Positions 1,154-41,555 of a stretch of 55,573 nucleotides of DNA are shown here, one piece after another. Position numbers and translations under genes: made by a program. This DNA comes from a virus. The DNA is taken from positions 1 through 55,573 of IMG/VR virus record IMGVR_UViG_3300046000_004360; one strand, given 5' to 3'. The notes beneath the pieces were generated by a model that worked only from the letters and a program-made list of their open reading frames with translations, was not told the origin of the DNA and did no database searches. Each line of letters opens with the position of its first letter. The first letter of the stretch is position 1.

Positions 1154-1783
1154 TTAACTTATTCCGACGCGGAGCTGCCCAGACCTATAGGCGTCCCTGC
1201 GGTCTTTACCATCTCCTAGCTGCTTAAGCAACATCAAGGCTTCGTCGTACCGCTTCTGGTACATTGCAACCACTTCAGGCTCCCCCTTCATAAAGGTATA
1301 AGCCTCCAACAGCGCCCCATACAATAGAGTAGAGTCAAAATTATCCCCCAGCCAAGTAGTAGAAGCAGTAACAATAGACTCAGGCAGGTAAAAATAATGC
1401 AGCTCAGTAGTGTAGCTCGCATCGGGGGTGGGCCCCAGCAGGAACGTAGTGTCGTCGAATTGCGCATAGTGTGCTGGAGTCCCTGTAGTCGAGGGGTTGG
1501 GGTAAGCCTCACGGATAAAGTTCACATCCTTATTCAGTAAAAACTCATAATCCCCCGCAGCGGTAACTATAGCAAGTGAGAACGTAGCCAGCCAATCTGA
1601 AGGGCAGGTCAGGTATTTATTTCCCGATGCTACCGTGCCCGTCATGTTCTTGCGCAGGTTAGGAAGCTGTACACTGTTATATATTCGCTGCTCGGCCTGT
1701 TTTATAAAGGTGTCAACAGTCGTAGTAGAAAAAGAATCCTCTACGTAACTATTAATTGCGACTACTAGCTGTGCATAATTCAT
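1154..1783 (-). CDS. Phage adaptor (head-tail connector) protein
   Basis: This 209-residue protein begins MNYAQLVVAINSYVED and continues with a helix ending in FIKQAEQRIYNSV. A beta-rich middle containing YLTCPSDWL and a C-terminal helical stretch (LLYGALLEAYTFMKGEPEVVAMYQKRYDEA) follow. This order (N-terminal helices, beta insertion, C-terminal helices with a FMKGEPE-like motif) fits the SU10/P22 gp4-like adaptor family that sits below the portal. It starts 5 bp after the stop of a 49-residue ORF and has no clear SD, so it probably depends on translational coupling. Family assignment is by motif recall and has not been searched. Confidence 0.7.
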   Translation of the reverse strand: MNYAQLVVAINSYVEDSFSTTTVDTFIKQAEQRIYNSVQLPNLRKNMTGTVASGNKYLTCPSDWLATFSLAIVTAAGDYEFLLNKDVNFIREAYPNPSTTGTPAHYAQFDDTTFLLGPTPDASYTTELHYFYLPESIVTASTTWLGDNFDSTLLYGALLEAYTFMKGEPEVVAMYQKRYDEALMLLKQLGDGKDRRDAYRSGQLRVGIS

Positions 1784-1788
1784 TGGGG

Positions 1789-1938
1789 CTACTGGCTATT
1801 CTTAGAGTATGTAGTGCCCTTGGTTGCCGCGCCCGTACCCCGAATTGGTTTTGTGTTGGTAGCGGCAAGCTTATTAGGATACCCACCAACGGTAGGCACT
1901 GGGCATGATTTAGGCTCTGGTAATTTAGTCTTACTCAT
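1789..1938 (-). CDS. Small late protein (49 aa)
   Basis: It runs from ATG 1938 to TAG 1789 with an AGAAAGG ribosome site directly upstream. The protein is Pro/Thr/Lys-rich (starts MSKTKLPEPKSCPVPTVGG) with no membrane segment. It fills the gap between the 57-residue gene and the adaptor gene in the same direction with 2-5 bp spacing, which supports it being real despite its length. Function unknown. Confidence 0.6.
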   Translation of the reverse strand: MSKTKLPEPKSCPVPTVGGYPNKLAATNTKPIRGTGAATKGTTYSKNSQ

Positions 1939-1940
1939 GG

Positions 1941-2114
1941 TTAGCCTTTCTTCTGAAGCATTACTCGCGCCATGTTGCGTCCGTAAGTTTTTCTGTCGTC
2001 GTTAGTAACCCCACCACTACCTTTGCCCCCCTTCTGGATACCTACACTTGCCCCAGTAGCGTTAATGGTTCCTTGGGTCTTGCCCTTCTTCTCAATTCCG
2101 TTGCCTCTTGCCAT
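1941..2114 (-). CDS. Small basic late protein (57 aa)
   Basis: It starts at ATG 2114 after AGGAG. The protein is Gly/Lys/Arg-rich and basic (begins MARGNGIEKKGKTQGTINAT, ends RVMLQKKG), which suggests nucleic-acid or virion binding. It is tightly packed between the zinc-ribbon gene and the 49-residue gene. The IEKKGKTQG segment recalls the KGxTKGKFR tails of two nearby late proteins. Function unknown. Confidence 0.6.
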   Translation of the reverse strand: MARGNGIEKKGKTQGTINATGASVGIQKGGKGSGGVTNDDRKTYGRNMARVMLQKKG

Positions 2115-2123
2115 AATAATCTC

Positions 2124-2468
2124 CTATGATGTAACTACTGTAACAGTTCCTAATGATATAATTGATTCTGTCGCGCTCTGTATTTGTCCTAGTGGATCGG
2201 TATAACCTACAGGGTCCCACCCCCACTGTATTTCCCTGCTTGCTGCTGTCTGGTCTGGACGGGGGTTACGCAATGCCTGTGGGTCTGTAAAAGTATACAT
2301 CCCTAGCTGTAATTGAGGATGGTCAGGACTCCAACACTCAGGGCAAGCTAACGTGGCGGTTACTTTTGTCTTTACTACCAGTGCGCGAAGTTGGCTAAGC
2401 TTATAGTGGAACCCACACACATCACATAGCCCAAGCGCCGATTTACCTGCTGCAAAATTAGAACTCAT
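2124..2468 (-). CDS. Zinc-ribbon phage protein (114 aa)
   Basis: The protein carries a four-cysteine zinc ribbon, CDVC at about residues 15-18 and CPEC at about 42-45. A basic linker and a Trp/Pro-rich middle that includes NPRPDQTAASREIQW follow. Short zinc-ribbon proteins of this type are common in podovirus structural clusters, but their role is not established. It overlaps the TAA of the preceding neck gene, has no clear SD, and is probably translationally coupled. Confidence 0.7.
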   Translation of the reverse strand: MSSNFAAGKSALGLCDVCGFHYKLSQLRALVVKTKVTATLACPECWSPDHPQLQLGMYTFTDPQALRNPRPDQTAASREIQWGWDPVGYTDPLGQIQSATESIISLGTVTVVTS

Positions 2469-3182
2469 TTATATAAACTGCTGCCTTGGTACCATTCTTA
2501 GGGGGGCTTTCTCACGGTCTTCTTCCGCCGCTCTTTGAAATTCCTCTTCATAATCAGCTTTGAGCATAGGGATCCGTGGCATCGCTTCAGGCAGTTTCAT
2601 ACTCAAGTAATATGCCAATCCCGCTACCAGAGCGGGTAAGAAACGATAAGGCACGTCTTGGGTATTAACACCACTACCTGCATCTTGAATCCTGCGAAGC
2701 CGCCAATATTGAAAAGTATAGGTATCATTATCAGGTACGGGCCACACAGTAATTGTAGGGTAAGAAATAGTGCTTGTGGGTGTGGGCCCAGTAGCACCCG
2801 ATTGTCGGTCTATGTAAACTTGTAATGGTCGGCCTGTAGAGTTCTTGTTTGGTAGCGTCGCATAGGTTGACACGCTAATACGACTTATGTTAATATCTAC
2901 CTGTGTAGTGGTCGTACCTGTACGTACAACGTGATCCAATAAATCAACCGTATCCAAAGGCAAGTTATAGGTAGCGGTGCCCGACACAAGCGGGATAGAC
3001 CCCTGCTCTACAGTCCATAAATTTATTCCGCGATTTTGCCACGCGATTAACATTATATTCAAAGACCTACGAGCGGTCTTTAAGTCGTAACCTGAGCGGC
3101 TTTCTGATCCGCAGCGCTCAAAACTTTCCTCTACTAAATTAACTAAGTCTAGGTTGAATGTAGTTGTGTCGGTAGTTGCCAT
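2469..3182 (-). CDS. Putative neck / head-completion protein
   Basis: This 237-residue protein begins with helices (NLVEESFERCGSESRSGYDL, KTARRSLNIMLIAWQNRGIN). A beta-rich centre contains TYNLPLDTVDLLDHVV and TVWPVPDNDTYTFQYWR. It ends with two long helices (RFLPALVAGLAYYLSMKLPE) and a charged tail. This layout resembles head-to-tail connector or tail-tubular-like proteins in environmental podovirus genomes. It lies upstream of the zinc-ribbon and adaptor genes, consistent with neck assembly. Family name uncertain. Confidence 0.65.
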   Translation of the reverse strand: MATTDTTTFNLDLVNLVEESFERCGSESRSGYDLKTARRSLNIMLIAWQNRGINLWTVEQGSIPLVSGTATYNLPLDTVDLLDHVVRTGTTTTQVDINISRISVSTYATLPNKNSTGRPLQVYIDRQSGATGPTPTSTISYPTITVWPVPDNDTYTFQYWRLRRIQDAGSGVNTQDVPYRFLPALVAGLAYYLSMKLPEAMPRIPMLKADYEEEFQRAAEEDREKAPLRMVPRQQFI

Positions 3183-3329
3183 TTACTTACCCATGCGGCT
3201 TGTCGCCCGCTCTGCTTTAACCAACTTATCAAGTGCCGTAACGGAGCCACCCTTAGCTAGTTTCTTAGCTGGTTTACGCCCCGGAACCTTTAGTGGGTTT
3301 ATATCCCCCATGCCGCGTGATGGTCTCAC
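3183..3329 (-). CDS. Small basic late protein with LAKGG motif (48 aa, GTG start)
   Basis: A GTG at 3329 overlaps the TGA of the preceding gene (GTGA) and has AAGGGGAA seven bases upstream, so I prefer it to the ATG at 3311, which would give 42 residues. The protein is Lys/Arg-rich and contains KKLAKGGSVTALDKL, one of the FAxGG-like motifs that recur in late proteins of this phage. Its TAA abuts the ATG of the neck gene. Function unknown. Confidence 0.6.
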   Translation of the reverse strand: MRPSRGMGDINPLKVPGRKPAKKLAKGGSVTALDKLVKAERATSRMGK

Positions 3330-3775
3330 CGGAACTTCCCCTTAGTGTGTCCCTTCTTTGCTATGCCATTAATGCCTTTGCTTTTTACCGCCCCGCCTTT
3401 TTTATACCCTGTTAGATTGCCATCTTCATCAAACGACTTATCCGTGTATAGGGGTTTGTTTTTGAAGTCCTCAACATCTTTAGCCGTGCCAAAACCCTCA
3501 ACTATTGCTTTAGGTTGTGGTTTACCTCTTCGTTCTAGCTCCCTCACGTTATCGTCTACTTTGGCTGCCCTATATAACGCCTTATCCGCCGCTACATCCC
3601 CCGACAATAACCTCTCATACATGATCTTGGAATCTGGATCTGTGGGCCGCTTTCTTTTTTCATAGGCTGATTTAAGCCCCTCATAATCATCCTTAAATCC
3701 ATCAGCGGTCCAGCCAGCTATATGTTCCCGTTTGGCTTCAAGTTTAGCCGCCGCGCTCATCTTAAATGGTTTCAC
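3326..3775 (-). CDS. Late protein with C-terminal KGHTKGKFR motif (149 aa)
   Basis: The 149-residue protein is highly charged and largely helical, with many Lys, Asp and Glu residues. The last third is Gly/Lys-rich and contains GYKKGGAVKSKGINGIAKKG before a terminal HTKGKFR. The same ending is found in the upstream neighbour (CKGKTKGKFR), so the tail appears to be a shared module. Start ATG 3775 overlaps the upstream stop (ATGA). Probably a virion-associated protein; no family recognised. Confidence 0.65.
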   Translation of the reverse strand: MKPFKMSAAAKLEAKREHIAGWTADGFKDDYEGLKSAYEKRKRPTDPDSKIMYERLLSGDVAADKALYRAAKVDDNVRELERRGKPQPKAIVEGFGTAKDVEDFKNKPLYTDKSFDEDGNLTGYKKGGAVKSKGINGIAKKGHTKGKFR

Positions 3776-4464
3776 CTAAATTTCCCCTTTGTTTTGCCTT
3801 TGCACTCAATGCCGCCGCCTTTAGCGAACTTCATCTCGCTACTAGCTGCATCATACGCACCTTTTCTAGCCTTCTGTTCGCGGGCTTCGTCACGCATTTT
3901 GCGCATTTCTTCTTGCTCTTTAGCGGAAGGGGTGCCATCGTCTTTAGTGGGCGCGGGTTTTATTGGCCCCCCTCCATTAAACCGCCTTATCGTACCCCCA
4001 GTAACAGGAATAGGATTTTGCGGCATTCCTCGCGAAGCTAACCTAGCATTAACCAGCGTCTGCCCGGATAGCGGCTTATCAGGAGGAGGTGCGCGTCTGC
4101 TGTCAGCCGTAACTGGAGTTGGCGTAACAGGGTATTGTGGTGGCAACCCCCGCGAAGCTAACCTAGCATTAACCAAATCCCCCCCTCCAGCGAACTTCTT
4201 AACCTTACCCCCTTTCTTCATCCCCATGTTGCCCATATCTTGCTTGGTAGGAACTCCGCCAGCCTTTAGTCCTTTGATATAATCCCCTACGGAGAGGGCA
4301 CCAGACTTAAGAGCTTTACCTTTATCCATTGCGCCACGCGCATGGCCTTCGGATTTCTCCCCTTTAGCATATTGTTTAGGTGAAATCTTCCCGGACTTAA
4401 CTGCACGGGCTTCGCTGGATTCTTCCGCCTTTGATTCCTTACCTTTAAACATCTTGGTAGCCAT
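3772..4464 (-). CDS. Late Gly/Lys-rich protein with repeated motifs (230 aa)
   Basis: I take ATG 4464 as the start because GGGGAAA lies eight bases upstream. The longer frame opening at 4554 would run through the preceding gene. The protein is basic and low-complexity, with two copies of LVNARLASRG (also direct repeats in the DNA near 4035 and 4150). It has FAxGG-type motifs (KKFAGGGDL, RRFNGGGPI, KFAKGGGIE) and the C-terminus CKGKTKGKFR. It is probably a disordered virion protein. Its function is unknown. Confidence 0.65.
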   Translation of the reverse strand: MATKMFKGKESKAEESSEARAVKSGKISPKQYAKGEKSEGHARGAMDKGKALKSGALSVGDYIKGLKAGGVPTKQDMGNMGMKKGGKVKKFAGGGDLVNARLASRGLPPQYPVTPTPVTADSRRAPPPDKPLSGQTLVNARLASRGMPQNPIPVTGGTIRRFNGGGPIKPAPTKDDGTPSAKEQEEMRKMRDEAREQKARKGAYDAASSEMKFAKGGGIECKGKTKGKFR

Positions 4465-4466
4465 AA

Positions 4467-4709
4467 TTATTTCCCCGCTAAATAGTGAATTGCCTGCATA
4501 GTAAGCGCCCCTACAGTTCCTGAAGCACCCCCAACAAGCATAAGCATCTTCCATCCCCCCTTAGCTTCCGAGAGGGTTAGGCTGATGGTATTTAATACTT
4601 TCTTCATCGCTTCCATATCCGCCATCAATCTATCCATATCATCCTGTAGATGTCTTATGTCTGATCCATGCACTGCTAATTCCCGCTCCGCGTTTATTAT
4701 GGATTCCAT
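4467..4709 (-). CDS. XhlA/holin-like small membrane protein
   Basis: The 80-residue protein has an N-terminal coiled coil (residues about 10-50, DIRHLQDDMDRLMADMEAMK) followed by one hydrophobic segment near the C-terminus (about 55-77, MLMLVGGASGTVGALTMQ). This matches the architecture of haemolysin XhlA-type phage proteins, which act with holins at the inner membrane. It sits among structural genes rather than beside Rz/Rz1. The role is inferred from architecture only; it could also be a virion membrane protein. Confidence 0.55.
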   Translation of the reverse strand: MESIINAERELAVHGSDIRHLQDDMDRLMADMEAMKKVLNTISLTLSEAKGGWKMLMLVGGASGTVGALTMQAIHYLAGK

Positions 4710-4712
4710 GAG

Positions 4713-5003
4713 TTATCCGTAAAAGAAAGTTACAGACGTTGCGTTAGTAATGGTTACATAGGGGTCTGCTTGAAACAACACCCCCTCGCCGGGGAATAAC
4801 AAATATCCAGTGAGTGTGGCGCCAGCAGGGGTATCTAATTTTATACGCTCTGTGCCGCCAGAGCCGCCATCCTTAAATGACAACGAACCTGCAAGCGCCC
4901 CCGATACCCAATAAACTGCCCTAACTCTGGCTCTGGGCACCCCGATAGCTGATGCAGCCGTGGCTGTAAGGTTCTTAGCCTTTACGTCAGTTTGCATAGT
5001 CAT
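4713..5003 (-). CDS. Putative small structural protein (96 aa)
   Basis: It starts at ATG 5003 after a GGGGG ribosome site; ATG at residue 3 is an alternative. The protein is beta-rich with Gly/Ala/Thr runs and few charges (ARVRAVYWVSGALAGSLSFK, ending SVTFFYG). This fits a small capsid-surface or tail component. It lies between the 150-residue structural gene and the coiled-coil membrane protein. No family recognised. Confidence 0.65.
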   Translation of the reverse strand: MTMQTDVKAKNLTATAASAIGVPRARVRAVYWVSGALAGSLSFKDGGSGGTERIKLDTPAGATLTGYLLFPGEGVLFQADPYVTITNATSVTFFYG

Positions 5004-19912: not shown

Positions 19913-20125
19913 ATGACTGAGGTAGAGAGAGCATTTTTATTGCATCTAGTAGTAGAGCATGGGGATAGACCATTCGCCTATACATGGGCAAAAGAGCCGA
20001 TGATGTCCTTGCGGCGTGAGGGGATGATTGAAGTAACTGAGTTTGTGACAGATGTGAAAACCAGTGACGCCAGAGTGACTGCGGCGGGATTAAACTTTTT
20101 AAAAGGGGGACAAAATGAGCAGTAG
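19913..20125 (+). CDS. Winged-helix-like paralogue 1 (70 aa)
   Basis: It shares the pattern 'xxLLxLVVEHGDRxF ... L...G.I ... VTAAGLNFLK' with five other small proteins of this window (23661, 40175, 40353, 41101, 41267). The pattern resembles a minimal winged-helix fold whose last motif (ITPAGLEYLK) is typical of MarR/PadR-like wings. It overlaps the MoxR ATPase gene by 11 bp, suggesting co-translation with the triad. DNA binding is inferred. Confidence 0.65.
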   Translation: MTEVERAFLLHLVVEHGDRPFAYTWAKEPMMSLRREGMIEVTEFVTDVKTSDARVTAAGLNFLKGGQNEQ

Positions 20126-21227
20126 CATGAACATGTATAATTTTGCAGTAAACCACGATGAAGCGGCAACATTAGTCCGTGCTAATGGGAGCAATATAAC
20201 ATACATAATCGAGGGAGAGCCGGGATCATCGAAAAGCAGCATCCTGAAAACCATCGAATCACTTGAAGGTGACAGATATGAGTATATTTATATTGATGCG
20301 CCCCTTAAGGATATACCAGACATTGCATTAACCATGCCACACCACGAATCGCAAACTACTAGAGCATATATAAATCAGATATGGATGGGTAAAGATGCCA
20401 ACAAACCTAAGATCGTGATGATAGACGAGGTATTCAAATGCACCCCTTATGTGCAGCTAATGCTTAACAGGCTGATGCTTGACCATTACGTGGGGGATTA
20501 TCAACTGCCAGCGGGAAGTATTGTTTTCGGTACTACTAATTTCGCAACTGATGGTGTAGGCGATAAGACTAACGGACACACTAACAGCCGCGTGGCACGG
20601 ATACCCATGCGTAAACCAAATCAAGTTGAGTGGACTAAATGGGCGGTGAACAATAACATCAATCCATTTATTCTCACATGGATAGGCCAGAATCCCGCGA
20701 TATTTAGTAGCTACAAAGACCCGGCGACAACATCATTCGATGCAAAATTACACGCTGATGGGCAGGGTATATTTCAGTATATCTATCACCCTCAACACAA
20801 TGCACAAGCGTATGTTTGCCCTCGTACACTGGAGTTGGCATCGCACCAGTTGAACAATCTCGACAAACTGGGGGAAGAGCTAACCATTAAAGCGTTAATT
20901 GGCACAGTAGGGGGAAAAGCGGCGTTAGATATGGGGGCATTACTTGCGCTAGGTGCAGACTTGCCAAGTCCCGATGAGGTAATGAGTAACCCAACTAAAT
21001 GCAAACTCCCTAAATCGGTCGGGGCGCAGATGATACTGGTATATAAAAGCCTGAATTACATCACTGCGGGTACCATAGATGCTTGGGCGGAGTACATCGG
21101 GCGCATGGGGTTAGAGGTGAGAGCAGTATGGGTAAAAACGATGCGACACCAGCCTGAGCTACTCGATATTATGTCGCGCAATAGACAACTCGTGGACTGG
21201 GTTGTGGACAATAGTATAGTGCTTTAA
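20115..21227 (+). CDS. MoxR-type AAA+ ATPase
   Basis: The AAA+ core is at about residues 25-260. The Walker A region is GEPGSSKS (34-41), with Ser in place of the usual Gly before Lys40. Walker B is IVMIDE with Asp104-Glu105, sensor 1 is FGTTN with Asn142, and a likely Arg-finger region is NSRVARIPMR. MoxR-type ATPases work with a VWA-domain partner to remodel or activate target proteins, and such a partner is encoded two genes downstream (22112-23281). Length 370 aa is normal. The three genes are closely spaced (13 and 10 bp), pointing to one operon. Confidence 0.82.
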   Translation: MSSSMNMYNFAVNHDEAATLVRANGSNITYIIEGEPGSSKSSILKTIESLEGDRYEYIYIDAPLKDIPDIALTMPHHESQTTRAYINQIWMGKDANKPKIVMIDEVFKCTPYVQLMLNRLMLDHYVGDYQLPAGSIVFGTTNFATDGVGDKTNGHTNSRVARIPMRKPNQVEWTKWAVNNNINPFILTWIGQNPAIFSSYKDPATTSFDAKLHADGQGIFQYIYHPQHNAQAYVCPRTLELASHQLNNLDKLGEELTIKALIGTVGGKAALDMGALLALGADLPSPDEVMSNPTKCKLPKSVGAQMILVYKSLNYITAGTIDAWAEYIGRMGLEVRAVWVKTMRHQPELLDIMSRNRQLVDWVVDNSIVL

Positions 21228-21240
21228 TAATGGGGATAAA

Positions 21241-22101
21241 ATGAAAACGGATATAATGTTATTAAATGCAGTGATTGTAGAGCTAAACTTTTCGTGTTGG
21301 AGTGCCAAGAAGCATGACAGGAAAGCATCCAAGGATGTTACGGACAACAATGGGGCTAACAGTAGTGATGCTGCCAAGGTACAGAAAAACTTGATGGCTG
21401 GTATGGGGAACTTGAAAAAAGTAACTGACTTTATCGCTAATACCCGCAATGAATTTTATGGTATGACTTTGCCGTGGTCAGATGGTGGACAGCGTATGCT
21501 ACCGATGGCTGGATTTTTTGATATGAAACAGTGGTTGGATGATAAAGAGACAGAGTTCAACAGTCTGGTGCAGCAGTTCCTAATTGATTATCCGCTGATT
21601 ATTGGGGCGCAAGCATTTCAGTTAGGCGCGTTGTTTGACCGTAGCGAGTACCCGACAGTCGATGACGTTAAGCATAAATTTAAGTTTAGTGTGGGTTTTC
21701 TGCCCCTGCCAACATCGGGTGATTTTAGAGTAGATGCGCCAGCCGAGGCACTCAAGGAGATGCGAGGCGACTACGAAAAAGCGATGGGGGAACGAGTGAG
21801 AGGAATAAATAAGCACTTGTGGGATCTGCTGCATGACTGCTTGACTAAAATGAGCGAGCGACTAGGCACTGATGCCGAGGGAAAGAAAAAAGTCTTTAGA
21901 GATACACTTGTTGACAATGCCGTTGACCTATGCGACACTCTCAAAACGCTGAACGTAACTAATGATAGTAAGCTGGAAGATAAGCGGCGACTGCTGGAAA
22001 AGGCACTGACTGGAGTTGATCCTAACCTGCTGAGGGAATCAGACGGAGCGCGGATAGAGGTTAAAAAACAAGTTGACTCGGTATTATCGTCATGGATATA
22101 G
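21241..22101 (+). CDS. DUF3150-like middle protein of the MoxR-VWA triad (286 aa)
   Basis: The protein is mostly helical, with two coiled-coil-like zones (about 160-210 and 230-275). It has a conserved-looking segment ATRNEFYGMTLPWSDGG-like near residues 65-85 (IANTRNEFYGMTLPW). Middle genes of phage ATPase/VWA clusters often encode DUF3150 proteins of this size and position. I assign it on context and general look, not by domain search. SD GGGGA precedes ATG 21241. Confidence 0.55.
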   Translation: MKTDIMLLNAVIVELNFSCWSAKKHDRKASKDVTDNNGANSSDAAKVQKNLMAGMGNLKKVTDFIANTRNEFYGMTLPWSDGGQRMLPMAGFFDMKQWLDDKETEFNSLVQQFLIDYPLIIGAQAFQLGALFDRSEYPTVDDVKHKFKFSVGFLPLPTSGDFRVDAPAEALKEMRGDYEKAMGERVRGINKHLWDLLHDCLTKMSERLGTDAEGKKKVFRDTLVDNAVDLCDTLKTLNVTNDSKLEDKRRLLEKALTGVDPNLLRESDGARIEVKKQVDSVLSSWI

Positions 22102-22111
22102 GGAGAAAATA

Positions 22112-23281
22112 ATGGATAGTAAATACACAGCGGAGCAGCAAATAAGTAGGGCTAAAATCTGGTGCATGACTTCACCAGAGTGGCGTTGGGGCGCGAGCGT
22201 GTACATGATGGGGGAGACTGCGTTTGTATCAGGAGCAGATGCCCTATGCCAGACCGCTGGAACGGATGGGATAAATGAAATGTATAATCGGGATTTCCTT
22301 GCTACGCTGTGTGATGGGGAGACTAGGTTCCTCGTACTACATGAGGGAATGCACAAGATACTGCGCCATATGTTTGTCTGGCGCGCCTTGGCAGATGATA
22401 ACGCGAAGCTGGCTAATATAGCGATGGATGCCGTAATTAATAATCAATACCTGATGGGCAAGGAGGGGCTTAAGTTCCCAACGGGTGGGGTGGATATGCC
22501 ACAGTACGCCGATAGTAGCAAGTGGAATGCTAAGTCTATATTTGAAGACCTTAAAAAGAACGGCGCAGGCAAACAAACCAGCACCGATTACCACGACTGG
22601 GAAGCGGCAAAAGCCCTAACACCAGAGCAGGCTAAAGAAGTTGAGAAGCAGATCGACACAGCAATAAGACAGGCGGCACTTACTGGCGCGGGGCTGCCTA
22701 GGGGGGTTGAGGCAATGCTTGTGCCAGAGGTAGACTGGAAGATGCACCTAGCGGAATTTGTTAAGGCGCAATGCGCCGGGGCGGATAAACAGACGTGGAG
22801 AAAACCACACAGAACGTATATTGCTTATGACTTATACATGCCCACACCATACGCAGATAGGGTAGGTAAGCTGCTGTTATGCGGGGATACGTCAGGATCA
22901 ATTGGCGATAGGGAGCTATCGCACTTTTTAGGACATATGCAGCACCTGTGCGATGAAGTCAACCCTGATGGAATTGATTTGGCTTGGTGGGATACCGAGA
23001 TAAGGGGCGTAGATGTATTCACCGCCAGCACCATGGGCTGCCTCGCAGCGGCAGTAAAGCCAAAGGGCGGCGGTGGAACTGACCCTCGATGCATAACTGA
23101 GTGGTTGACAGAGCAAAGGAACGAGTACGTTTGTGCGGTGGTGGTTACAGATGGTGAGTTTGACACTAAAAACGTAGGCGACTGGGGCGCGCTGCCTGTG
23201 TTGTGGCTAGTAGTGAATAATAGCAGCACCGGGGGCATCGCCAGCGGGGTAACTATACGGGTGCGAGAGTTGAGCGCGTGA
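22112..23281 (+). CDS. Metallopeptidase-like (DUF2201) plus VWA domain protein
   Basis: I choose ATG 22112 (389 aa) because GGGAG is seven bases upstream. The N-terminal domain has a zincin-like HEGMH (residues 77-81) followed by IAMDAVINN (104-112), typical of the DUF2201 N-terminal putative metallopeptidase. The C-terminal VWA-like domain has all MIDAS elements: DTSGS (259-263), Thr in GGGGTD (about 323) and VTDG (about 346-348). It should pair with the MoxR ATPase at 20115. The target is unknown: proteolysis, metal insertion or complex remodelling are all possible. Confidence 0.83.
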   Translation: MDSKYTAEQQISRAKIWCMTSPEWRWGASVYMMGETAFVSGADALCQTAGTDGINEMYNRDFLATLCDGETRFLVLHEGMHKILRHMFVWRALADDNAKLANIAMDAVINNQYLMGKEGLKFPTGGVDMPQYADSSKWNAKSIFEDLKKNGAGKQTSTDYHDWEAAKALTPEQAKEVEKQIDTAIRQAALTGAGLPRGVEAMLVPEVDWKMHLAEFVKAQCAGADKQTWRKPHRTYIAYDLYMPTPYADRVGKLLLCGDTSGSIGDRELSHFLGHMQHLCDEVNPDGIDLAWWDTEIRGVDVFTASTMGCLAAAVKPKGGGGTDPRCITEWLTEQRNEYVCAVVVTDGEFDTKNVGDWGALPVLWLVVNNSSTGGIASGVTIRVRELSA

Positions 23282-23469
23282 GAGCGACTAAAACACTATT
23301 ACAGCTAAGTATCGATATGGAGGCTGCCTCTGCCGCCTATGCTGCCCGTGATGCCCGTGATGCCTGTGATGACTATACTACTGCCTCTGCTGCATGGTTT
23401 GCTGCCCATGGTGCCTATGTTGCTGCCTATGGTGCCTATATCAATGTCCTCAAGGAGAACCATGAATAA
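23278..23469 (+). CDS. Ala-rich repeat protein, copy 1 (63 aa, GTG start)
   Basis: GTG 23278 overlaps the TGA of the VWA gene (GTGA). The first 20 residues (RATKTLLQLSIDMEAASAAY) are nearly identical to copy 2 at 23462. The rest is an Ala-rich degenerate repeat (DARDACDD, SAAWFAAHGAYVAAYGAY) ending INVLKE. It probably forms an amphipathic helix. The duplication and Ala repeats suggest fast length evolution. Function unknown. Confidence 0.6.
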   Translation: MRATKTLLQLSIDMEAASAAYAARDARDACDDYTTASAAWFAAHGAYVAAYGAYINVLKENHE

Positions 23470-23660
23470 AACACTATTACAGCTAAGTATCGATATGGAG
23501 GCTGCCTCTGCCGCCTATAGAGCATCCCGAGCTGCTGCCCGTGGTGCCCGTGGTGCCCGTGGTGCCTATGTTGCTGCCCATGGTGCCTGTGCTGCTGCCT
23601 CTGCTGCATGGTTTGCTGCCTGTGATGCCTATATCAATACCCTCAAGGAGTACCTGAAAA
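23286..23660 (+). repeat. Tandem gene duplication with Ala-codon repeats
   Basis: The DNA from about 23290 is repeated from about 23469, identical for about 50 bp (ACACTATTACAGCTAAGTAT start) and again near the C-termini. Between these lie degenerate repeats built from GCTGCC / GGTGCC / GATGCC units. This is a recent tandem duplication of a small gene followed by repeat expansion and loss. Confidence 0.75.
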
Positions 23661-23674
23661 ATGTGCGACCATAA
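23462..23674 (+). CDS. Ala-rich repeat protein, copy 2 (70 aa)
   Basis: It starts at ATG 23462 inside the end of copy 1, with AAGGAG upstream. It repeats the N-terminus of copy 1 (KTLLQLSIDMEAASAAY) and the C-terminal pattern (AAWFAACDAYINTLKE), but has a longer Arg/Gly/Ala middle (RAAARGARGARGAYVAA). Both copies would be helical and Ala-rich. It overlaps the next wHTH-like gene by 14 bp. Function unknown. Confidence 0.6.
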   Translation: MNKTLLQLSIDMEAASAAYRASRAAARGARGARGAYVAAHGACAAASAAWFAACDAYINTLKEYLKNVRP

Positions 23675-23858
23675 AGCGAAATTGCGCAGTTACTTACTTA
23701 TGTTGCTGGTGGCTCATGGGGATAGTTATTTTAACTATATAAGTGATGAATACTGGTTACGATTAGTCCGGGGGGAATATATAAAATATGATTTAGGGAT
23801 CGGGTACAAAATAACCCCAAAAGGGCTGGAATTTTTAAAACAAGGAGGATCAACATGA
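23661..23858 (+). CDS. Winged-helix-like paralogue 2 (65 aa)
   Basis: The sequence LRSYLLMLLVAHGDSYFNYI ... LVRGEYIKYD ... GYKITPKGLEFLK matches the small winged-helix-like family of the window. It lies just downstream of the MoxR-VWA triad, mirroring paralogue 1 just upstream. Probably a small DNA-binding or adaptor protein (inference). It is followed by an ATGA overlap with the next gene. Confidence 0.65.
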   Translation: MCDHKAKLRSYLLMLLVAHGDSYFNYISDEYWLRLVRGEYIKYDLGIGYKITPKGLEFLKQGGST

Positions 23859-24548: not shown

Positions 24549-25108
24549 GAGAATTATTTGAATTAGATGTAGATGAGTGTACCGCGTTCGGGGTATTGGA
24601 CACCGATGACGATGACTTACGATTGATGACCCCGGCATATACTGATGATGATGGTCGGCAAGCACAGAATAAAAGTGTATACATAATAGGGCGGATAGCA
24701 CTCAAGCAGTTGCGCGACATATTGATAGAATCATACCCCCCAGATGAAGAAACCCCAGAGGAAGAAACCCCAGAAATATCCCACTTAGAGCTTAGGCAGC
24801 AGTGGCTAGACGATATGAAGAAAGACCCAAGCATTGTTTGGCAGGCTAGACTGCGGGAAAAAGGGCAGTTGTCGGATAATGGGTGGATAGATTCCGCAGC
24901 ACCGCTATGGTTTGAAGAGTTAGAATACCGCCGCAAACCAAAGACTTACACCATGTATATGTGTTTAGTGAGACACTTACACACAGCAGGGCTTTCACCA
25001 TTTTCACTGTCGTTTAGGACAGTCAGTGAGCTTGACATCCACTGCAATCAGTTTGGCCTAGTTAAGGTGGGTGAAGTAGTGGCGCGGGAAATAGGGGAGG
25101 GTATATAG
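24545..25108 (+). CDS. Hypothetical acidic protein (187 aa)
   Basis: The N-terminal 40 residues are rich in Asp (DVDECTAFGVLDTDDDDLRL). A linker with repeated EETPEE units (DNA repeat near 24745-24775) follows. The remainder, with LELRQQWLDDMKKDPSIVWQ and TYTMYMCLVRHLHTAGLSPF, looks globular. No family recognised. It overlaps both neighbours by a few bases. Confidence 0.6.
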   Translation: MRELFELDVDECTAFGVLDTDDDDLRLMTPAYTDDDGRQAQNKSVYIIGRIALKQLRDILIESYPPDEETPEEETPEISHLELRQQWLDDMKKDPSIVWQARLREKGQLSDNGWIDSAAPLWFEELEYRRKPKTYTMYMCLVRHLHTAGLSPFSLSFRTVSELDIHCNQFGLVKVGEVVAREIGEGI

Positions 25109-25431
25109 TGGCTATGACACCAGAGGGCAGGGTTAAAAACACCATAAAAAAGATACTCAAAGATTATAAAGTGGTATATGCTATGCCAGCGACAGGGGGG
25201 TTTGGTAAGAGTGGGGTTAGTGACTTCCTTGTATGCCACAGGGGGTATTTTATATCCATAGAGGCTAAGTCAGGGAGCAGCCAGCCTACGGCACTGCAAA
25301 AGAAGTGGCTAAAAGAAGTAGCTGAAGCAGGGGGGTGGGGGCTTGTAATCAACGAGGACAACATGGATGAGATAACGGACTTGTTTGATAGTATTGACGA
25401 GGTGGATGATGCTATCACTAGACTACACTAG
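25108..25431 (+). CDS. VRR-NUC domain nuclease
   Basis: The 107-residue protein is a minimal VRR-NUC (PD-(D/E)XK) domain. It has an N-terminal helix (EGRVKNTIKKILKD), GVSDFLV with the catalytic Asp, then YFISIEAKSG supplying Glu and Lys, and QPTALQKKWLKEVAEAGGWG. Such phage nucleases act on branched DNA, possibly as junction resolvases. GTG 25108 fits the GGGGAGG site; ATG 25114 is an alternative. Confidence 0.85.
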   Translation: MAMTPEGRVKNTIKKILKDYKVVYAMPATGGFGKSGVSDFLVCHRGYFISIEAKSGSSQPTALQKKWLKEVAEAGGWGLVINEDNMDEITDLFDSIDEVDDAITRLH

Positions 25432-29408: not shown

Positions 29409-29674
29409 TGCCTAGAAAACCTAATATACCTAAAGGTTCGCCGTACTGGAAAGAAGAATGGAAAAAGATGCAGGCTAATGGGGAAGACAAGAAGCAGCTT
29501 GAAAGGGCTAAGGCCAGAAGGATGGTCGATAAGGCGGGAATTAATAGGAAGGGTAAAGATGTAGGGCACATCAAGCCAGTGGAGGATGGGGGTAAGAGCG
29601 TGATGAGCAACTTACGTATTGAGGACTCCAGTAAAAACCAGAGTAATAATTTGCATAAGAAGGGGGAGAAATGA
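29408..29674 (+). CDS. HNH-like endonuclease / DNA-binding protein (88 aa)
   Basis: A basic N-terminus (SPYWKEEWKKMQANGEDKKQ, AKARRMVDKAG) precedes GKDVGHIKPVEDGGKSVMSN and LRIEDSSKNQSNN. The order G-H-x-x-P...GG...NLR...N fits a cysteine-free HNH motif seen in small phage proteins. Activity is not certain. It starts in TAATG overlap with the preceding stop and overlaps thyX by 4 bp. Confidence 0.65.
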   Translation: MPRKPNIPKGSPYWKEEWKKMQANGEDKKQLERAKARRMVDKAGINRKGKDVGHIKPVEDGGKSVMSNLRIEDSSKNQSNNLHKKGEK

Positions 29675-31332
29675 ATGTAAAACTAATAAGCCATTCAGTA
29701 CCTACAGGCCCAAAGATAGAAGGTATGCAGGGGTTAGTAGCCTTCTGTGCTAGGGTGAGTAATCCAAGCAACCAACATAACCAGAGTACGGAGAAGTTAA
29801 TTACATACTTGCTGGATAATAAACACTTCTCGCCACTGGAAATGGTTAATGTTTGTCTGGAAATTGAAACGACTCGCGATATTGGTAGGCAGATACTTAG
29901 GCATAGATCATTTACGTTTCAGGAATTTTGTGTTACTGGGGATAGTTTAATTACTACGGTTACTAAAGGAGGTAGGACAAAAAAAGTATCTATTGAGAAG
30001 CTATATGCGCGGCATAAGTCCGACCAATATAGAGGTATAAGTGATAATTTAGTTCGTGTGTATGATGAGAAGAGCAGGTTTCTATCCTCGGCCAAGATAA
30101 AAGAAGTATTTAAAACTGGCAAAAAGGACGTGTATGAACTAACCCTAGAAAACGGAAAGAAAATACAATCCACTATGGATCATAAATTTCTTACTTACGC
30201 CGGGTTTAAACCGCTTAAAGCGATAACCATAGATTCTTTCGTTGGATGCAATGGGATTCCAGTCCATCAAGAGCATAGCTGGTTGCAACAAGCGAAGATA
30301 GAATCAATAGAAGCGGGGGTAGGGATACCATACATAGCTCACAAAGCGCAAATAAGCTACCATACTGTTAGGAAGTGGCTAAGAATACACAAACTGCAGT
30401 ACTCTAAAAAAGAGGTCGCGACATATACTAGTATATGGAATAAAGGCATACCGAAGGAATACCAACCTAATTTTGGTGGTTTCCACAGCAAAGAAACACG
30501 GGAAAAGATGTCTGCTAGTGCTATGAAGGGGGTTGATTCTAACTTATATAAAAATGGTAAGTACACAACGGACACTATGAGGTGGAGGAATTTAGTCGCT
30601 CAGAAGTGTAAAGGATACCATTCAGAAATTCTACAAAAGCAAAATAACAGGTGTGCCATAAGTGGGGCCCGTATTAATTTGAGTAATAGTGAAGTAGACC
30701 ATATACACCCAGTATACAGCCACCCTAGTTTAGCGTTTGAAAAAACAAACTTACAGGTATTATGTAAAGAAGCGCATAGAGTAAAATCAGGCAAAGAAAG
30801 AAAAGAAGCAAAGTACACAGCAAGGTTTTCAAAAGTGAAGTCTATTTTTTACATAGGGGAGAAAGAGACGTATGATATTGAGGTTGAGCATCATAGTCAT
30901 AATTACATAGCTAACGGGATCGTTACTCATAACTCACAAAGATACGCCGACCCAGTTAAGGAACTAAATTTTGAATTACGCGAAGCAAGGTTGCAGGACG
31001 CGAAGAACAGGCAGAACTCTATGGATACCACAGATAGAGACTTAAAAGAGTACTGGCACATGAAGCAAATGGAGGTGATTAACTTAGCTAAAAAGAATTA
31101 CCAGTGGGCGTTATATAACGGTTTAGCTAAGGAATGTGCCAGAGTAGTGCTGCCAGAGGGGAATACATTATCTAGGATGTATGTGAATGGCACTATGAGA
31201 AGCTGGTTACACTACTGCGACTTGCGGGGTAGTAACGGCACACAGAAAGAACATATGGACATAGCACGAGAATGTGTAGAAGTTATAAGCACGGTGTTTC
31301 CATTGATAAAACAAAAAGAAAGCCCTACATGA
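29671..31332 (+). CDS. thyX: Flavin-dependent thymidylate synthase with intein
   Basis: The exteins (residues 1-86 and 422-553) join to a 218-residue ThyX. The ThyX signature RHR-x7-S reads RHRSFTFQEF before and SQRY after the insert, so the intein splits the signature exactly before its Ser. The C-extein has the usual KECARVVLPEG and RSWLHYCDLR. ThyX makes dTMP from dUMP using FAD, NADPH and methylenetetrahydrofolate. It is encoded just before the ribonucleotide reductase genes (ATGA overlap with the alpha gene), so it forms one dNTP-supply unit with them. Confidence 0.95.
   Translation: MNVKLISHSVPTGPKIEGMQGLVAFCARVSNPSNQHNQSTEKLITYLLDNKHFSPLEMVNVCLEIETTRDIGRQILRHRSFTFQEFCVTGDSLITTVTKGGRTKKVSIEKLYARHKSDQYRGISDNLVRVYDEKSRFLSSAKIKEVFKTGKKDVYELTLENGKKIQSTMDHKFLTYAGFKPLKAITIDSFVGCNGIPVHQEHSWLQQAKIESIEAGVGIPYIAHKAQISYHTVRKWLRIHKLQYSKKEVATYTSIWNKGIPKEYQPNFGGFHSKETREKMSASAMKGVDSNLYKNGKYTTDTMRWRNLVAQKCKGYHSEILQKQNNRCAISGARINLSNSEVDHIHPVYSHPSLAFEKTNLQVLCKEAHRVKSGKERKEAKYTARFSKVKSIFYIGEKETYDIEVEHHSHNYIANGIVTHNSQRYADPVKELNFELREARLQDAKNRQNSMDTTDRDLKEYWHMKQMEVINLAKKNYQWALYNGLAKECARVVLPEGNTLSRMYVNGTMRSWLHYCDLRGSNGTQKEHMDIARECVEVISTVFPLIKQKESPT
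29929..30933 (+). mobile_element. Intein with HNH homing endonuclease in ThyX
   Basis: The 335-residue insert begins with Cys (CVTGDSLITT, block A) and has block B TMDHKFLTYAG. It ends NGIVTHN before Ser+1 (blocks F/G), so all splicing residues are present. The middle has a helix-turn-helix-like part, a NUMOD3 motif (FHSKETREKMSASAMKG), and an HNH domain: NRCAISGARI, VDHIHP, NLQVLCKEAH. It should splice from ThyX and spread by cutting intein-free thyX alleles. Confidence 0.92.
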
Positions 31333-37343: not shown

Positions 37344-40175
37344 ATGGATACGCTAATTAAAAGCGTGGTGCCACAGCAGGGGGTGTATTGCCTTAACACA
37401 ATACTAGAGGGTTCGGTACACCAGACTTTCCACGATACCCCAGATGAGCTAGTTACTGAAGGTGTGATAGCATCTTTATCTGGAAGAAACGCCTATTATG
37501 CAATGGCTTCGTTTAAGGATAGTTCTTCTCGCGGGCAGCAGAACGTGCGGGCAGTTAAGTCTTTCTGGCTTGATGTGGACTGCAAGGATATGCTACCTAA
37601 TAAGGACTATGCCAATAAGGATGAAGGCAAGCAAGCTATAATAGACTTCGTTAAAGCGCAAAAGTTCCCTCGGCCTACTATTGTCGACTCGGGTAACGGC
37701 TGGCATGTGTACTGGATATTGGAAGAAGAAGTGACCCCGGAGTTGTGGCAACCCCTCGCAGATAAACTAAAGACCGTATGCCTCAAGACAGGATTACGGA
37801 TAGACCCAGCGTGTACGGCTGACAGCGCGAGGATACTGCGCATACCAGATACCTATAACTACCGTTTTAACCCACCATCTAAGGTGGAACTAATCAGACA
37901 TAGCCCTGTAGTAAGTTTCAGTGAGTTTAGTAGCGTAGTCGAGGCAGCATACGAGCCGTTTCGCGCTTTACAGAACCCCCATAAACGCGGGGTAAGCGCC
38001 GCAACTCAAGCCCTATTGGGGAACACCGAATCTAGTTTCAAGAAGATTTTAGTGCGTAGCACTGCAGGCACAGGATGTGAGCAGATATTGTTAGGGGTGC
38101 AGAATCAAGCAGAGATTGAAGAGCCTTTATGGAGGGGGATGCTCTCGATAGCACAGCAGTGTTCGGACAGGGAAAAGGCAATACCGTTTGTATCTAACAA
38201 ACACCCTGAATATGATATGGATGAGTCGTTCAAGAAGGCAGAGCAAACTAAAGGACCCTACACTTGTGCCACATTAGATAGTATTAACGCAGGGGTATGT
38301 AGTTCATGCACTCATTGGGGGCGCATTACAAGCCCCATACAGCTCGGCAAAGAGATTATAGCTATCAAAGCCCCAATAACGGTAAACATCGCGCCTGAAG
38401 TGGTTGTGGAGCCTGTGGATGACGCCGTAGAAACAACACCAGACCAGAACCTAGAGGCCTACGAACAGGAAGAACTGAAGGTAGTAATACCCGTGCCTCC
38501 TGCACCATATTCACGCGGGGTACATGGGGGTATTTATAAACGAACTAAATGCGAAGATGGCACTTTTGATGACGTACTAATTTATGAGAATGATTTTTAT
38601 GCCCATGCGAGATTATATGACCCGGCTGACGGGCAAGTTCTGGCTTGTAGACTACATCTACCCCTTGATGGCGTTAGAAACTTTAATATCCCGCTACAGT
38701 CAGTAGGCTCCAAGGATAGGTTAAGAGATGTTATTTGTAAGCAGGGGGTTGCGGCGTCAGATAAAACTGTGGTAGAATTAAGCAACTACTTAATATTGAT
38801 GGCGAAGGAGCTACAGAGGATGAGCAAAGAAGAGCAGGCACGGACGCAGATGGGGTGGCAAGATGATGATAGCTTTGTGATAGGCGCTAGGGAATACTCT
38901 AAGGATGGAATAAGGCACTGCCCCCCATCAAATGCGACTACTAATTACCAACACATGTTCAGGATGGAAGGCGACATAAAAGAATGGAGAAAAGTAATTG
39001 ACATATATAAACTGCCGGGGTTTGACATACATCAGTTTATATTCTTTACCGCGCTAAGTTCGCCGTTCTTGAAGCATATTGAAGTTGAGGGCATGATGAC
39101 CTCCATGATTTCCGATGAGTCTGGGATTGGTAAGACTACGCTATGTATGGCATGTAATAGTATTTGGGGGCACCCTAAAGAAATGATGAGTATGCCGCAT
39201 GATACTGTTGCCGCGCTTATTAATCGGATGGGGGTATTTCATAGTATGGCGGTAGTAGTAGATGAGCTTACCAATAAAGAAGCGAAGCCCTGCAGTGACA
39301 TTCTGTATATGGCTACCCACGGCAAAGGCCCCGCTAGAATGACAAGTGGCGCTAATGTGGAACGAGTGAATAATACAACATGGAACCTAAACGTACTCAC
39401 AACGGCTAACGCATCAATCCGTGATAAGGTTTCCGCATATAAGGCATCAGCAGAGGGGGAGAACATGCGCCTGTTCGAGTTTGATATGCGCGGAACTCCG
39501 GTAATCCCCAAGGCAGAAGCGGATGCTGTGTTCTCGAAGATGAACGATAACTATGGGGTAGCGGGGCATATATTCACATCATGGCTGGTTAAGAATGTTA
39601 AAGATATTAAAAGGATAGTATTACAGACACAAGCCATCATGGATAAACGGTTTGCCTTCACTAGCAAGGAGCGTAAATGGTCATCCTGTGTAGCTGCTGC
39701 ATATACAGTAGCGTATATTGCCAAGAGTTTAGGACTCCATGACTTTGATATAGAGCGTAATATTCTGTTCATGGTTGCCTACGTGCAACGGATGCGTGGG
39801 GAAGTCAAAGAAGGGGTTACGCAGCACTGCGACTTGATCGCTAATTTCATGGGGGAGAATCACAGCAGTATCTTGATAATCAACGGATACCCCGACCCAA
39901 AAACAGGGCTGTTTGATGCCCCGCGCAACAAGAATATTAATAAAATCATAGGCAGATACGAGCCAGATACAGGTAAGTTAAGCCTATCCGCAGCGGTATT
40001 AAGGGAATACTGTGCCAAAAAACAGTACTCGTTTAGCAGCTTGACTGCACTATCTGGCGGTAAAATAGAGTCTCGCAGGCTGGCGGTAGGTACGGGTATT
40101 GTAGCAGCATCAGTCAGGGTTATTACCTTCGATACCAAGATGGCTGGGCTTGATATGTCTATGTGGGAGGATTGA
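37344..40175 (+). CDS. AEP primase fused to DUF927 helicase
   Basis: ATG 37344 is taken; a TTG at 37335 has better SD spacing and is possible. The N-terminal primase has the AEP motifs SFWLDVDCKD (Asp77, Asp79), SGNGWHVYW with His121, and ADSARILRIPDTYNYR. A linker leads to a DUF927-type helicase at about 390-900, with Walker A ESGIGKTT (about 590-597), Walker B AVVVDE (about 636-641) and a following NASIRDKVSA / MRLFEFDMRG region. At about 944 aa it is a full primase-helicase, and no separate DnaB or DnaG is seen. It likely starts replication forks. Confidence 0.87.
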   Translation: MDTLIKSVVPQQGVYCLNTILEGSVHQTFHDTPDELVTEGVIASLSGRNAYYAMASFKDSSSRGQQNVRAVKSFWLDVDCKDMLPNKDYANKDEGKQAIIDFVKAQKFPRPTIVDSGNGWHVYWILEEEVTPELWQPLADKLKTVCLKTGLRIDPACTADSARILRIPDTYNYRFNPPSKVELIRHSPVVSFSEFSSVVEAAYEPFRALQNPHKRGVSAATQALLGNTESSFKKILVRSTAGTGCEQILLGVQNQAEIEEPLWRGMLSIAQQCSDREKAIPFVSNKHPEYDMDESFKKAEQTKGPYTCATLDSINAGVCSSCTHWGRITSPIQLGKEIIAIKAPITVNIAPEVVVEPVDDAVETTPDQNLEAYEQEELKVVIPVPPAPYSRGVHGGIYKRTKCEDGTFDDVLIYENDFYAHARLYDPADGQVLACRLHLPLDGVRNFNIPLQSVGSKDRLRDVICKQGVAASDKTVVELSNYLILMAKELQRMSKEEQARTQMGWQDDDSFVIGAREYSKDGIRHCPPSNATTNYQHMFRMEGDIKEWRKVIDIYKLPGFDIHQFIFFTALSSPFLKHIEVEGMMTSMISDESGIGKTTLCMACNSIWGHPKEMMSMPHDTVAALINRMGVFHSMAVVVDELTNKEAKPCSDILYMATHGKGPARMTSGANVERVNNTTWNLNVLTTANASIRDKVSAYKASAEGENMRLFEFDMRGTPVIPKAEADAVFSKMNDNYGVAGHIFTSWLVKNVKDIKRIVLQTQAIMDKRFAFTSKERKWSSCVAAAYTVAYIAKSLGLHDFDIERNILFMVAYVQRMRGEVKEGVTQHCDLIANFMGENHSSILIINGYPDPKTGLFDAPRNKNINKIIGRYEPDTGKLSLSAAVLREYCAKKQYSFSSLTALSGGKIESRRLAVGTGIVAASVRVITFDTKMAGLDMSMWED

Positions 40176-40360
40176 TGAGGGAGAGGTTACTGCGCTGGGT
40201 GCTTGAAAATGGCGAGGGGTATGGGCATTATAGCCCTTATGGGCCTTATGGGGGGGATACGCACTACGGAGACCTACTAGAGCATAGTTATATAATATGG
40301 AAGGAACGTTTGGGGTACAAAATAACCCCGGCTGGACTGGAGTACCTGAAAAATGCGTGA
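40175..40360 (+). CDS. Winged-helix-like paralogue 3 (61 aa)
   Basis: ATG 40175 shares a base with the primase stop (TGATG) and has GGAGG four bases upstream. The sequence RERLLRWVLENGEGYGHYSP ... LLEHSYIIWK ... GYKITPAGLEYLKNA fits the small winged-helix-like family. It has a Tyr/Gly-rich insertion in the middle. Its last codons provide the SD and start of the next gene. Confidence 0.65.
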   Translation: MRERLLRWVLENGEGYGHYSPYGPYGGDTHYGDLLEHSYIIWKERLGYKITPAGLEYLKNA

Positions 40361-40550
40361 GACACTGATGAAACTGCTACTGGAGCACGGGGATAGGGAG
40401 TTTGATTATAAGCTGTTACAGCCTATACCTTGGTTTAAATTAATTGACTCGGGGTATTTAGTCCGGCATGGGGTTAGGCCCAACCCCCCAATAACTATGC
40501 TAAAAATAACCCCCGCTGGACTGGAGTACCTGAAATCCGATGCTGATTGA
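40353..40550 (+). CDS. Winged-helix-like paralogue 4 (65 aa)
   Basis: It starts at ATG 40353 inside the end of paralogue 3. The sequence ETLMKLLLEHGDREFDYKLL ... LIDSGYLVRHG ... ITPAGLEYLKSD matches the family closely. The repeated gene junction (GGAGTACCTGAAAAATGCG) supplies both the end of one gene and the start of the next. Confidence 0.7.
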   Translation: MRETLMKLLLEHGDREFDYKLLQPIPWFKLIDSGYLVRHGVRPNPPITMLKITPAGLEYLKSDAD

Positions 40551-40746: not shown

Positions 40747-41108
40747 ATATAGACAAAGCCGTGGCAGCGATAGAAGCCATTATATCCCCACCAGATGAGA
40801 CCCCGGTGCTACCCACGAATATTTATTCTATACTGAACGCAATTAGGCGCGGTTTATATACCAATATAGATGAAAATAAGCCAGAGCATAGGCTGGCTGT
40901 AGGGGTCATTATGCAGGCCATCTCGGATTACTGCAACGGCGATGCGTATATACCTACCCCAATATATAAGCGGAAAGAGGCATATATATCAGGCACTCAG
41001 TTCTTAACGGGGGAAGGGTTGAGGTACTGGGCAGCGGTGGCGGGGCTATCCCACGAAGACATATATAGGGCGGCGGCTAAGACTAAGGAGTACCTGAAAA
41101 ATGCGTGA
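40743..41108 (+). CDS. Small protein with family-type C-terminal junction (121 aa)
   Basis: ATG 40743 follows GGAGAG, so the longer TTG frame is not used. The protein is helical (NIDKAVAAIEAIISPPDETP, RRGLYTNIDENKPEHRLAVG). It ends in KEYLKNA, encoded by the same DNA junction that ends the winged-helix-like genes although the rest is unrelated. This suggests recombination at the junction. Function unknown. Confidence 0.6.
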   Translation: MNIDKAVAAIEAIISPPDETPVLPTNIYSILNAIRRGLYTNIDENKPEHRLAVGVIMQAISDYCNGDAYIPTPIYKRKEAYISGTQFLTGEGLRYWAAVAGLSHEDIYRAAAKTKEYLKNA

Positions 41109-41274
41109 CTTATTGTTGAAGCTGCTACTGGAGCACGGGGATAGGGAGTTTGAGTGGCCCCACTGGCACCAAGATGAGTATTTTTCTATGATTCGTGCGG
41201 GTTATTTAGGCCTTGGAGAACTAGAAAAATATAACATAACCCCACAAGGACTGGAGTACCTGAAAAATGCGTGA
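41101..41274 (+). CDS. Winged-helix-like paralogue 5 (57 aa)
   Basis: ATG 41101 to TGA 41274. The sequence RDLLLKLLLEHGDREFEWPH ... MIRAGYLGLG ... YNITPQGLEYLKNA is a close paralogue of the genes at 40353 and 41267; the first 50 bp are identical in DNA to paralogue 6. The gene starts in the previous gene's end. It lies in a tandem array of about 170-bp units. Confidence 0.68.
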   Translation: MRDLLLKLLLEHGDREFEWPHWHQDEYFSMIRAGYLGLGELEKYNITPQGLEYLKNA

Positions 41275-41479
41275 CTTATTGTTGAAGCTGCTACTGGAGC
41301 ATGGGGATAGGGGGTTTATTGGAGTTAGGCAGCGTGGGGGGTTAGGGCTGCTATGGAAAGCAGGGTTAATTAGTATTGATAGTGAGGCGGTGCCACCCGC
41401 AAACTTTGAAATATCCCCCATGACATTCAAAATATCCCCAAAAGGACTAGAATATCTCAAAAACATTGACAATCCGTGA
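41267..41479 (+). CDS. Winged-helix-like paralogue 6 (70 aa)
   Basis: It starts at ATG 41267 in the same junction. The first 16 residues (RDLLLKLLLEHGDRGF) repeat paralogue 5; the middle has diverged and the end is ISPKGLEYLKNIDN. This is the last plus-strand gene before the convergent terminator. Confidence 0.68.
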   Translation: MRDLLLKLLLEHGDRGFIGVRQRGGLGLLWKAGLISIDSEAVPPANFEISPMTFKISPKGLEYLKNIDNP

Positions 41480-41524: not shown

Positions 41525-41555
41525 ACCCCCGTGCAATGCGGGGGTTTGTTATTTG
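41525..41555 (+). terminator. Terminator between converging operons
   Basis: CCCCCG (41526-41531) and CGGGGG (41539-41544) form a perfect 6-bp stem extended by A-T, with a 7-nt loop, then TTTGTTATTT on the plus strand. It ends the early block and lies just before the end of the minus-strand 1819-codon gene. Confidence 0.82.

Follow-up and report, generated by a model that had tools for sequence, protein, structure and literature searches.

What might a phage do with a MoxR-type AAA+ ATPase, a DUF3150-family protein and a metallopeptidase-VWA protein encoded side by side? We addressed this question in a 55,573-base IMG/VR virus record, which was analysed as a whole stretch and is hereafter called the window.

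Three adjacent genes and their products

The triad comprises the following genes:

20115..21227, + strand: MoxR-type AAA+ ATPase of 370 aa; Walker A at residues 34-41 with Ser39, Walker B residues D104 and E105, sensor N142, R159 and R237; Pfam AAA_5, phrog_1297
21241..22101, + strand: DUF3150-family protein of 286 aa, proposed adaptor of the ATPase; 26 of the 35 members of its alignment match PF11348
22112..23281, + strand: DUF2201 protein of 389 aa; N-terminal HExxH metallopeptidase-like domain (H77, E78, H81) and C-terminal VWA domain with MIDAS (D259, S261, S263, T323, D347)

With the ATG of the VWA gene at 22112, the coordinates, motifs and residue numbers of the original prediction all proved correct. 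The intergenic gaps measure 13 and 10 nt; the ATPase start is overlapped by 11 nt by the preceding gene, and the stop of the VWA gene by a small Ala-rich ORF. The proposed co-translation of the triad is only partly borne out, given these gaps and the separate purine-rich stretch that precedes each of the three starts.

The ATPase matched AAA_5 (PF07728) at 27.2 bits against a cut-off of 22 (4.2e-6) and phrog_1297 at 2.8e-41, and a profile search of the PDB retrieved Midasin (1e-32) and NorQ (9e-6). Residues K40, D104, N142, R159 and R237 are conserved in all aligned members that cover the respective position. The Walker A motif with Ser in place of Gly that had been singled out (GEPGSSKS, residues 34-41) is real: Ser39 is unique to the window among the aligned members, all 52 others with a letter there carrying Gly39, and both Lys40 and Ser41 are intact. 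Judged by its sequence, this protein is an intact MoxR-type AAA+ ATPase.

The VWA protein matched DUF2201_N (9e-18) and DUF2201 (3.6e-11) in Pfam, scoring 65.3 and 43.7 bits against PF13203 and PF09967, whose curated cut-offs are 23.2 and 26.4, respectively. As predicted, it joins an HEGMH motif (residues 77-81) to a complete MIDAS (D259-T-S-G-S263, T323 and D347). H77, E78, H81, N102, D106 and N110 were invariant in all 52 members covering the region, and the five MIDAS residues in 53 out of 53, within a comparison set that includes gp25 of phage N4, Thermus phage phiFa, a jumbo phage, pSYSA and Burkholderia plasmids. Since the HExxH and MIDAS residues do not vary, the alignment points to strong selection on both the metal-peptidase site and the MIDAS, with D106 as a candidate third zinc ligand. 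Foldseek searches with an AlphaFold2 model of the protein (pLDDT 85.5) returned mostly VWA domains at low TM-scores, among them the MIDAS of Rea1/MDN1 and the VWA of NorD. No NorD-like finger was seen inside the VWA part of this model, which holds no 40-residue insertion; a conserved hairpin at approximately residues 225-248 precedes the VWA part.

The middle protein of the window itself matched neither Pfam, PF11348 included, nor PHROG, yet its likeness to DUF3150 was borne out by the members of its alignment, some of which score above the PF11348 cut-off. Of the profiles that the original prediction had suggested searching, MoxR (as AAA_5) and DUF2201 were matched by the window directly and DUF3150 through these alignment members. 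The confident AlphaFold2 model of the middle protein (pLDDT 90.6) is mostly helical, as anticipated, but contains some strands too, and its best BFVD match is annotated as 'DUF3150 domain-containing' (1.2e-18, TM 0.83). No relative was found in the PDB by fold or by profile, so the fold suggests no function. In Tunturi_3, in a Manganitrophus plasmid (both with DUF1257) and in planctomycete contigs, DUF3150-type proteins are also encoded close to a PF00004 AAA ATPase. A genome scan with the DUF3150 profile yielded six planctomycete contigs encoding such a protein, most near a different AAA ATPase, together with one archaeal-MAG contig carrying the triad, which is probably viral because it is almost the same as two of the phage loci described below (L057 and L058). 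DUF3150 apparently partners AAA ATPases in two different kinds of system, and because it pairs elsewhere with a different AAA ATPase, it would suit the role of an adaptor that chooses the target or couples the parts.

Linkage and distribution of the triad

Scans of viral contigs with the single AAA, VWA or middle protein retrieved only a near-identical contig. Searching with an alignment of the middle protein that included MinM2 and Tunturi_3 extended the yield of this family from one near-identical locus to 53 viral loci, in which triad genes were called by iterated profiles. All three genes occur on one strand in 45 viral loci, with a median span of 3.5 kb, which argues against a chance association; some of these loci are near-copies, and the independent cases are thus fewer. 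Twenty-three loci, all of them found through the middle protein, have flanks of 5 kb or more in each direction, and 21 of these carry the triad. The original prediction had named a lack of conserved linkage as grounds for its own rejection and had suggested surveying phage genomes for the same order. Linkage is conserved, in four orders: AAA-VWA-MID (n=25), MID-AAA-VWA (n=14), AAA-MID-VWA (n=5) and VWA-MID-AAA (n=1), MID being the middle protein. Its survival through these order changes is good evidence for a joint function of the three genes. The contigs of the two loci that depart from it, L062 and L064, lack a VWA gene altogether and carry a PF00004 AAA instead, and in L063 the genes are broken by frameshifts, which we read as sequencing error. 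Between the three families, distance matrices are correlated at r 0.78-0.90 (0 of 2000 permutations); this figure, like the linkage counts, comes from related phages and ignores shared ancestry.

The DUF3150 gene is not obligatory, since the AAA/VWA pair occurs without it in N4-like phages, Thermus phage phiFa and one jumbo phage; pSYSA likewise carries the pair only. On a tree of VWA proteins, the window copy has a long branch within a well-supported group of copies from aquatic phages, and the presence of DUF3150 requires three changes, so that its gains and losses in this sample would have been few.

Relatives of the VWA protein were detected in 450 phage and 36 plasmid records, and a query with a plasmid DUF3150 protein retrieved 42 plasmid records. 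AAA, DUF3150-type and VWA genes follow the window's order on plasmids of Burkholderia, Paraburkholderia, Cupriavidus, Variovorax and Rhodovastum. Two triad plasmids, of Burkholderia and Cupriavidus, were typed as conjugative, and some plasmid triads adjoin T4SS genes and follow a PRTRC ThiF gene that lies upstream of them. A record listed as an Acinetobacter 'plasmid' encodes a DNA-directed RNA polymerase and may in fact represent a phage.

The TerL of the window is nearest to that of Pelagibacter phage HTVC027P (48%), followed by DSL-LC04, 023Pt_psg01, HTVC023P and MinM2, and the portal matches the same five phages at 39-42%. All three triad genes are absent from HTVC027P, HTVC023P, DSL-LC04 and 023Pt_psg01, whose TerL and portal stand at 46-48% and 39-41% to the window, respectively, and whose virion structural protein is homologous too. 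Membership of the window phage in the Schitoviridae was considered and rejected, given this TerL affinity and the lack of an RNAP match among its large late proteins.

The genome is organized in two divergent arms, with direction and GC skew both switching at about 15 and 41 kb. The leftward arm encodes structural genes and the rightward arm replication genes (DNA polymerase A, ThyX, ribonucleotide reductase, helicase and primase). The triad lies in the latter, 5.7 kb from TerL, and in nine of the ten long relatives having both genes the VWA gene is located 5-9 kb from TerL on the opposite strand. Because the triad is located close to the beginning of the arm with the replication genes, and because its spacing from TerL is so widely kept, its position suggests that it is probably expressed early. 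A promoter scan revealed no excess over shuffles (15 vs 17.5). The small winged-helix-like genes predicted on both sides of the triad do exist, but they belong to a six-copy family dispersed over the genome and unlinked to it; as four further copies occur at 40-41.5 kb and none was detected in the loci retrieved from other phages, they were rejected as parts of the triad.

Relation to known systems

A homologous MoxR ATPase (phrog_1297) and metallopeptidase-VWA protein (phrog_1314, labelled 'HNH endonuclease') are found in phage N4 and among the Schitoviridae, and N4 gp24 and gp25 are neighbours on one strand. However, N4, Pastis and VBP32 have no DUF3150 gene, whereas the window phage, which is not a schitovirus, has one. 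The main text of the CRISPRi-ART paper, which includes N4, contains nothing on gp24 or gp25. The same two-protein architecture was reported in group 2.2 jumbo phages as a MoxR and metallopeptidase-vWA pair, DUF3150 being unmentioned, and a role in virion assembly was proposed for it (Iyer et al. 2021, PMC7824862), Scheele 2011 being cited there for an archaeal virus. Also close to the window are Synechococcus phage MinM2, where MoxR, DUF3150 and VWA genes are annotated as such in the window's order, and Planktothrix phages Pag-Yong1 and Pra-JY27, which carry all three in MoxR-DUF3150-VWA order and share the DUF3150 match of MinM2. MinM2 differs in having small genes between the three, and its proteins are 20-28% identical to those of the window.

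NorQ-NorD of Paracoccus and Midasin/Rea1 both combine a MoxR-clade AAA ring with a VWA/MIDAS arm, and the two halves of the window's set match these counterparts separately; the known clients of both systems are absent from the window. To our knowledge, neither of them includes an HExxH peptidase domain or a DUF3150 partner. In NorQD, a finger of the VWA domain enters the ring pore and the partner is twisted as ATP is hydrolysed (PMC13036017); for NorD, client binding via the MIDAS has been suggested (PMC9976466). The CobS/CobT likeness that had been noted holds at the level of MoxR plus VWA but not beyond, the VWA protein being of the DUF2201 type and lacking a CobT match in Pfam. We found no paper naming DUF3150 in a literature search that left out most subscription journals; within that same scope, the MoxR/metallopeptidase-VWA pair is already known, and DUF3150 as its third stable member and the plasmid-borne triad are undescribed.

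A proposed remodelling machine and its target

On balance, we regard the triad as probably one ATP-driven remodelling machine with a built-in peptidase and DUF3150 as its adaptor, used early on an intracellular complex rather than as part of the virion. On the precedents of NorQ-NorD and Midasin, the MoxR protein would form a hexameric ring, on which the VWA protein would dock to grip the target via its MIDAS ion. ATP hydrolysis could then twist or pull the target, whereupon the zinc-type peptidase domain, presumably standing where NorD has its N-terminal domain, would cut it, or the clamped complex would come apart. The recurrence of the triad in dozens of water-borne phages and in bacterial plasmids suggests that the target probably lies within the host cell rather than in the virion. 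It would most likely be a host intracellular complex, or one shared by phage and plasmid cycles, for example a defence complex or the replication machinery. None of the neighbouring genes points to the target, and a PADLOC search had no hit to any protein of the window, a result that shows only their absence from that defence-gene library.

More tentatively, the triad may be a general ATP-driven counter-host protease of lytic phages and conjugative plasmids. DUF3150 would pick a host defence or housekeeping complex, the MIDAS would hold it, the ring would pull and the zinc site would cut, with N4 gp24/gp25 as a two-component form; we consider this generalization possible rather than probable.

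We are doubtful that the triad is instead a replisome or replicon remodeller, acting in the loading, release or turnover of the element's own replication or recombination proteins, a role that would serve phages and plasmids alike. Several neighbours would fit it. Relatives of a 107-aa gene (25108-25431 in the window), VRR-NUC-like by eye and without a Pfam match, occur in 21 of 37 loci, and DNA polymerase A in 17 of the same 37, the flanks of which are limited; RNase H genes lie near the module in phage phiFa and a Variovorax plasmid, and one plasmid triad copy lies near ParB. However, the neighbouring genes vary greatly from element to element, unrelated genes are numerous in early regions, and four close relatives of the window phage replicate without the triad.

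A virion-assembly chaperone, in which the MoxR/VWA pair would fold or assemble structural proteins and the peptidase domain would process them, is unlikely, even though this role has been proposed for the pair by analogy with the tail chaperone of the Acidianus two-tailed virus (PMC7824862). In the window, the triad occupies the arm opposite the structural genes. It is also found on conjugative plasmids, and the pair on pSYSA; we know of no virions made by either. Since plasmids carry the module, and the triad is missing from four phages despite their homologous terminase, portal and virion structural protein, virion assembly is disfavoured as a general role and these distributions argue for a function outside the virion. 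Insertion of a metal cofactor by an auxiliary metabolic set resembling CobS/CobT, NorQ/NorD or CoxD/CoxE is a common job of bacterial MoxR-VWA pairs (PMC13036017) but is highly improbable here, as no CobN/NorB-type client enzyme was found among the annotated ORFs and the VWA protein, a DUF2201 fusion, has no CobT match and an HExxH motif that is strictly conserved.

The AAA/VWA pair is present in several hundred sequenced phages, the laboratory phage N4 among them, and we found no established function for it in the literature searched. The plasmid-borne triad, together with its absence from phages with homologous capsid genes, directs attention away from the virion and towards the host cell as the place to look for the target, a question that can be put to the test in laboratory strains with N4 gp24/gp25 and the Burkholderia plasmid triad.

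Small paralogues and other genes of the window

Six winged-helix-like paralogues of 58-70 aa, all on the (+) strand, share the pattern MRxLLLKLLLEHGDREF...ITPxGLEYLK. Two of the six flank the triad of MoxR ATPase, DUF3150-family and metallopeptidase-VWA genes, and the remaining four form a cluster at the distal end of the rightward arm. No member was seen in the fetched loci of other phages. The paralogues and further genes of the window are as follows:

19913-20125, 23661-23858, 40163-40360, 40353-40550, 41098-41274 and 41267-41479, (+), winged-helix-like paralogues
23278-23469 and about 23462-23674, (+), pair of small ORFs in tandem, rich in Ala and Tyr
29671-31332, (+), thymidylate synthase ThyX (PF02511) with intein (PF14890)
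41549-47008, (-), 1819-aa late protein with LPD38 domain

The Ala/Tyr-rich pair lies directly 3' of the VWA gene, and both ORFs contain KTLLQLSIDMEAASAAY. ThyX is split in frame by its intein, which bears an HNH domain. In the late protein, the LPD38 large-polyvalent-protein domain is located close to the C-terminus, and nothing matched beyond it.

Triads elsewhere and public labels

In Cupriavidus and Burkholderia (L075, L076), a PRTRC ThiF gene lies a few kb upstream of the plasmid triads, and T4SS genes adjoin the Burkholderia one. In contig L063, frameshifts or stops break the triad genes (1591-4714), probably as a result of sequencing error. Public records (phrog_1314, INPHARED) name the metallopeptidase-VWA protein 'HNH endonuclease', 'DNA repair ATPase' or 'virion RNA polymerase', none of which is backed by sequence.

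DUF3150 beside a PF00004 ATPase

DUF2201 VWA was not found with the DUF3150-type proteins of ten loci (L007, L062, L064, L068-L073 and L098), most of which have a PF00004 AAA ATPase (~500 aa) nearby. In Tunturi_3 and a Manganitrophus plasmid, DUF1257 accompanies this pair. Loci combining a DUF3150-type protein with a PF00004 AAA ATPase perhaps represent a second DUF3150 system.
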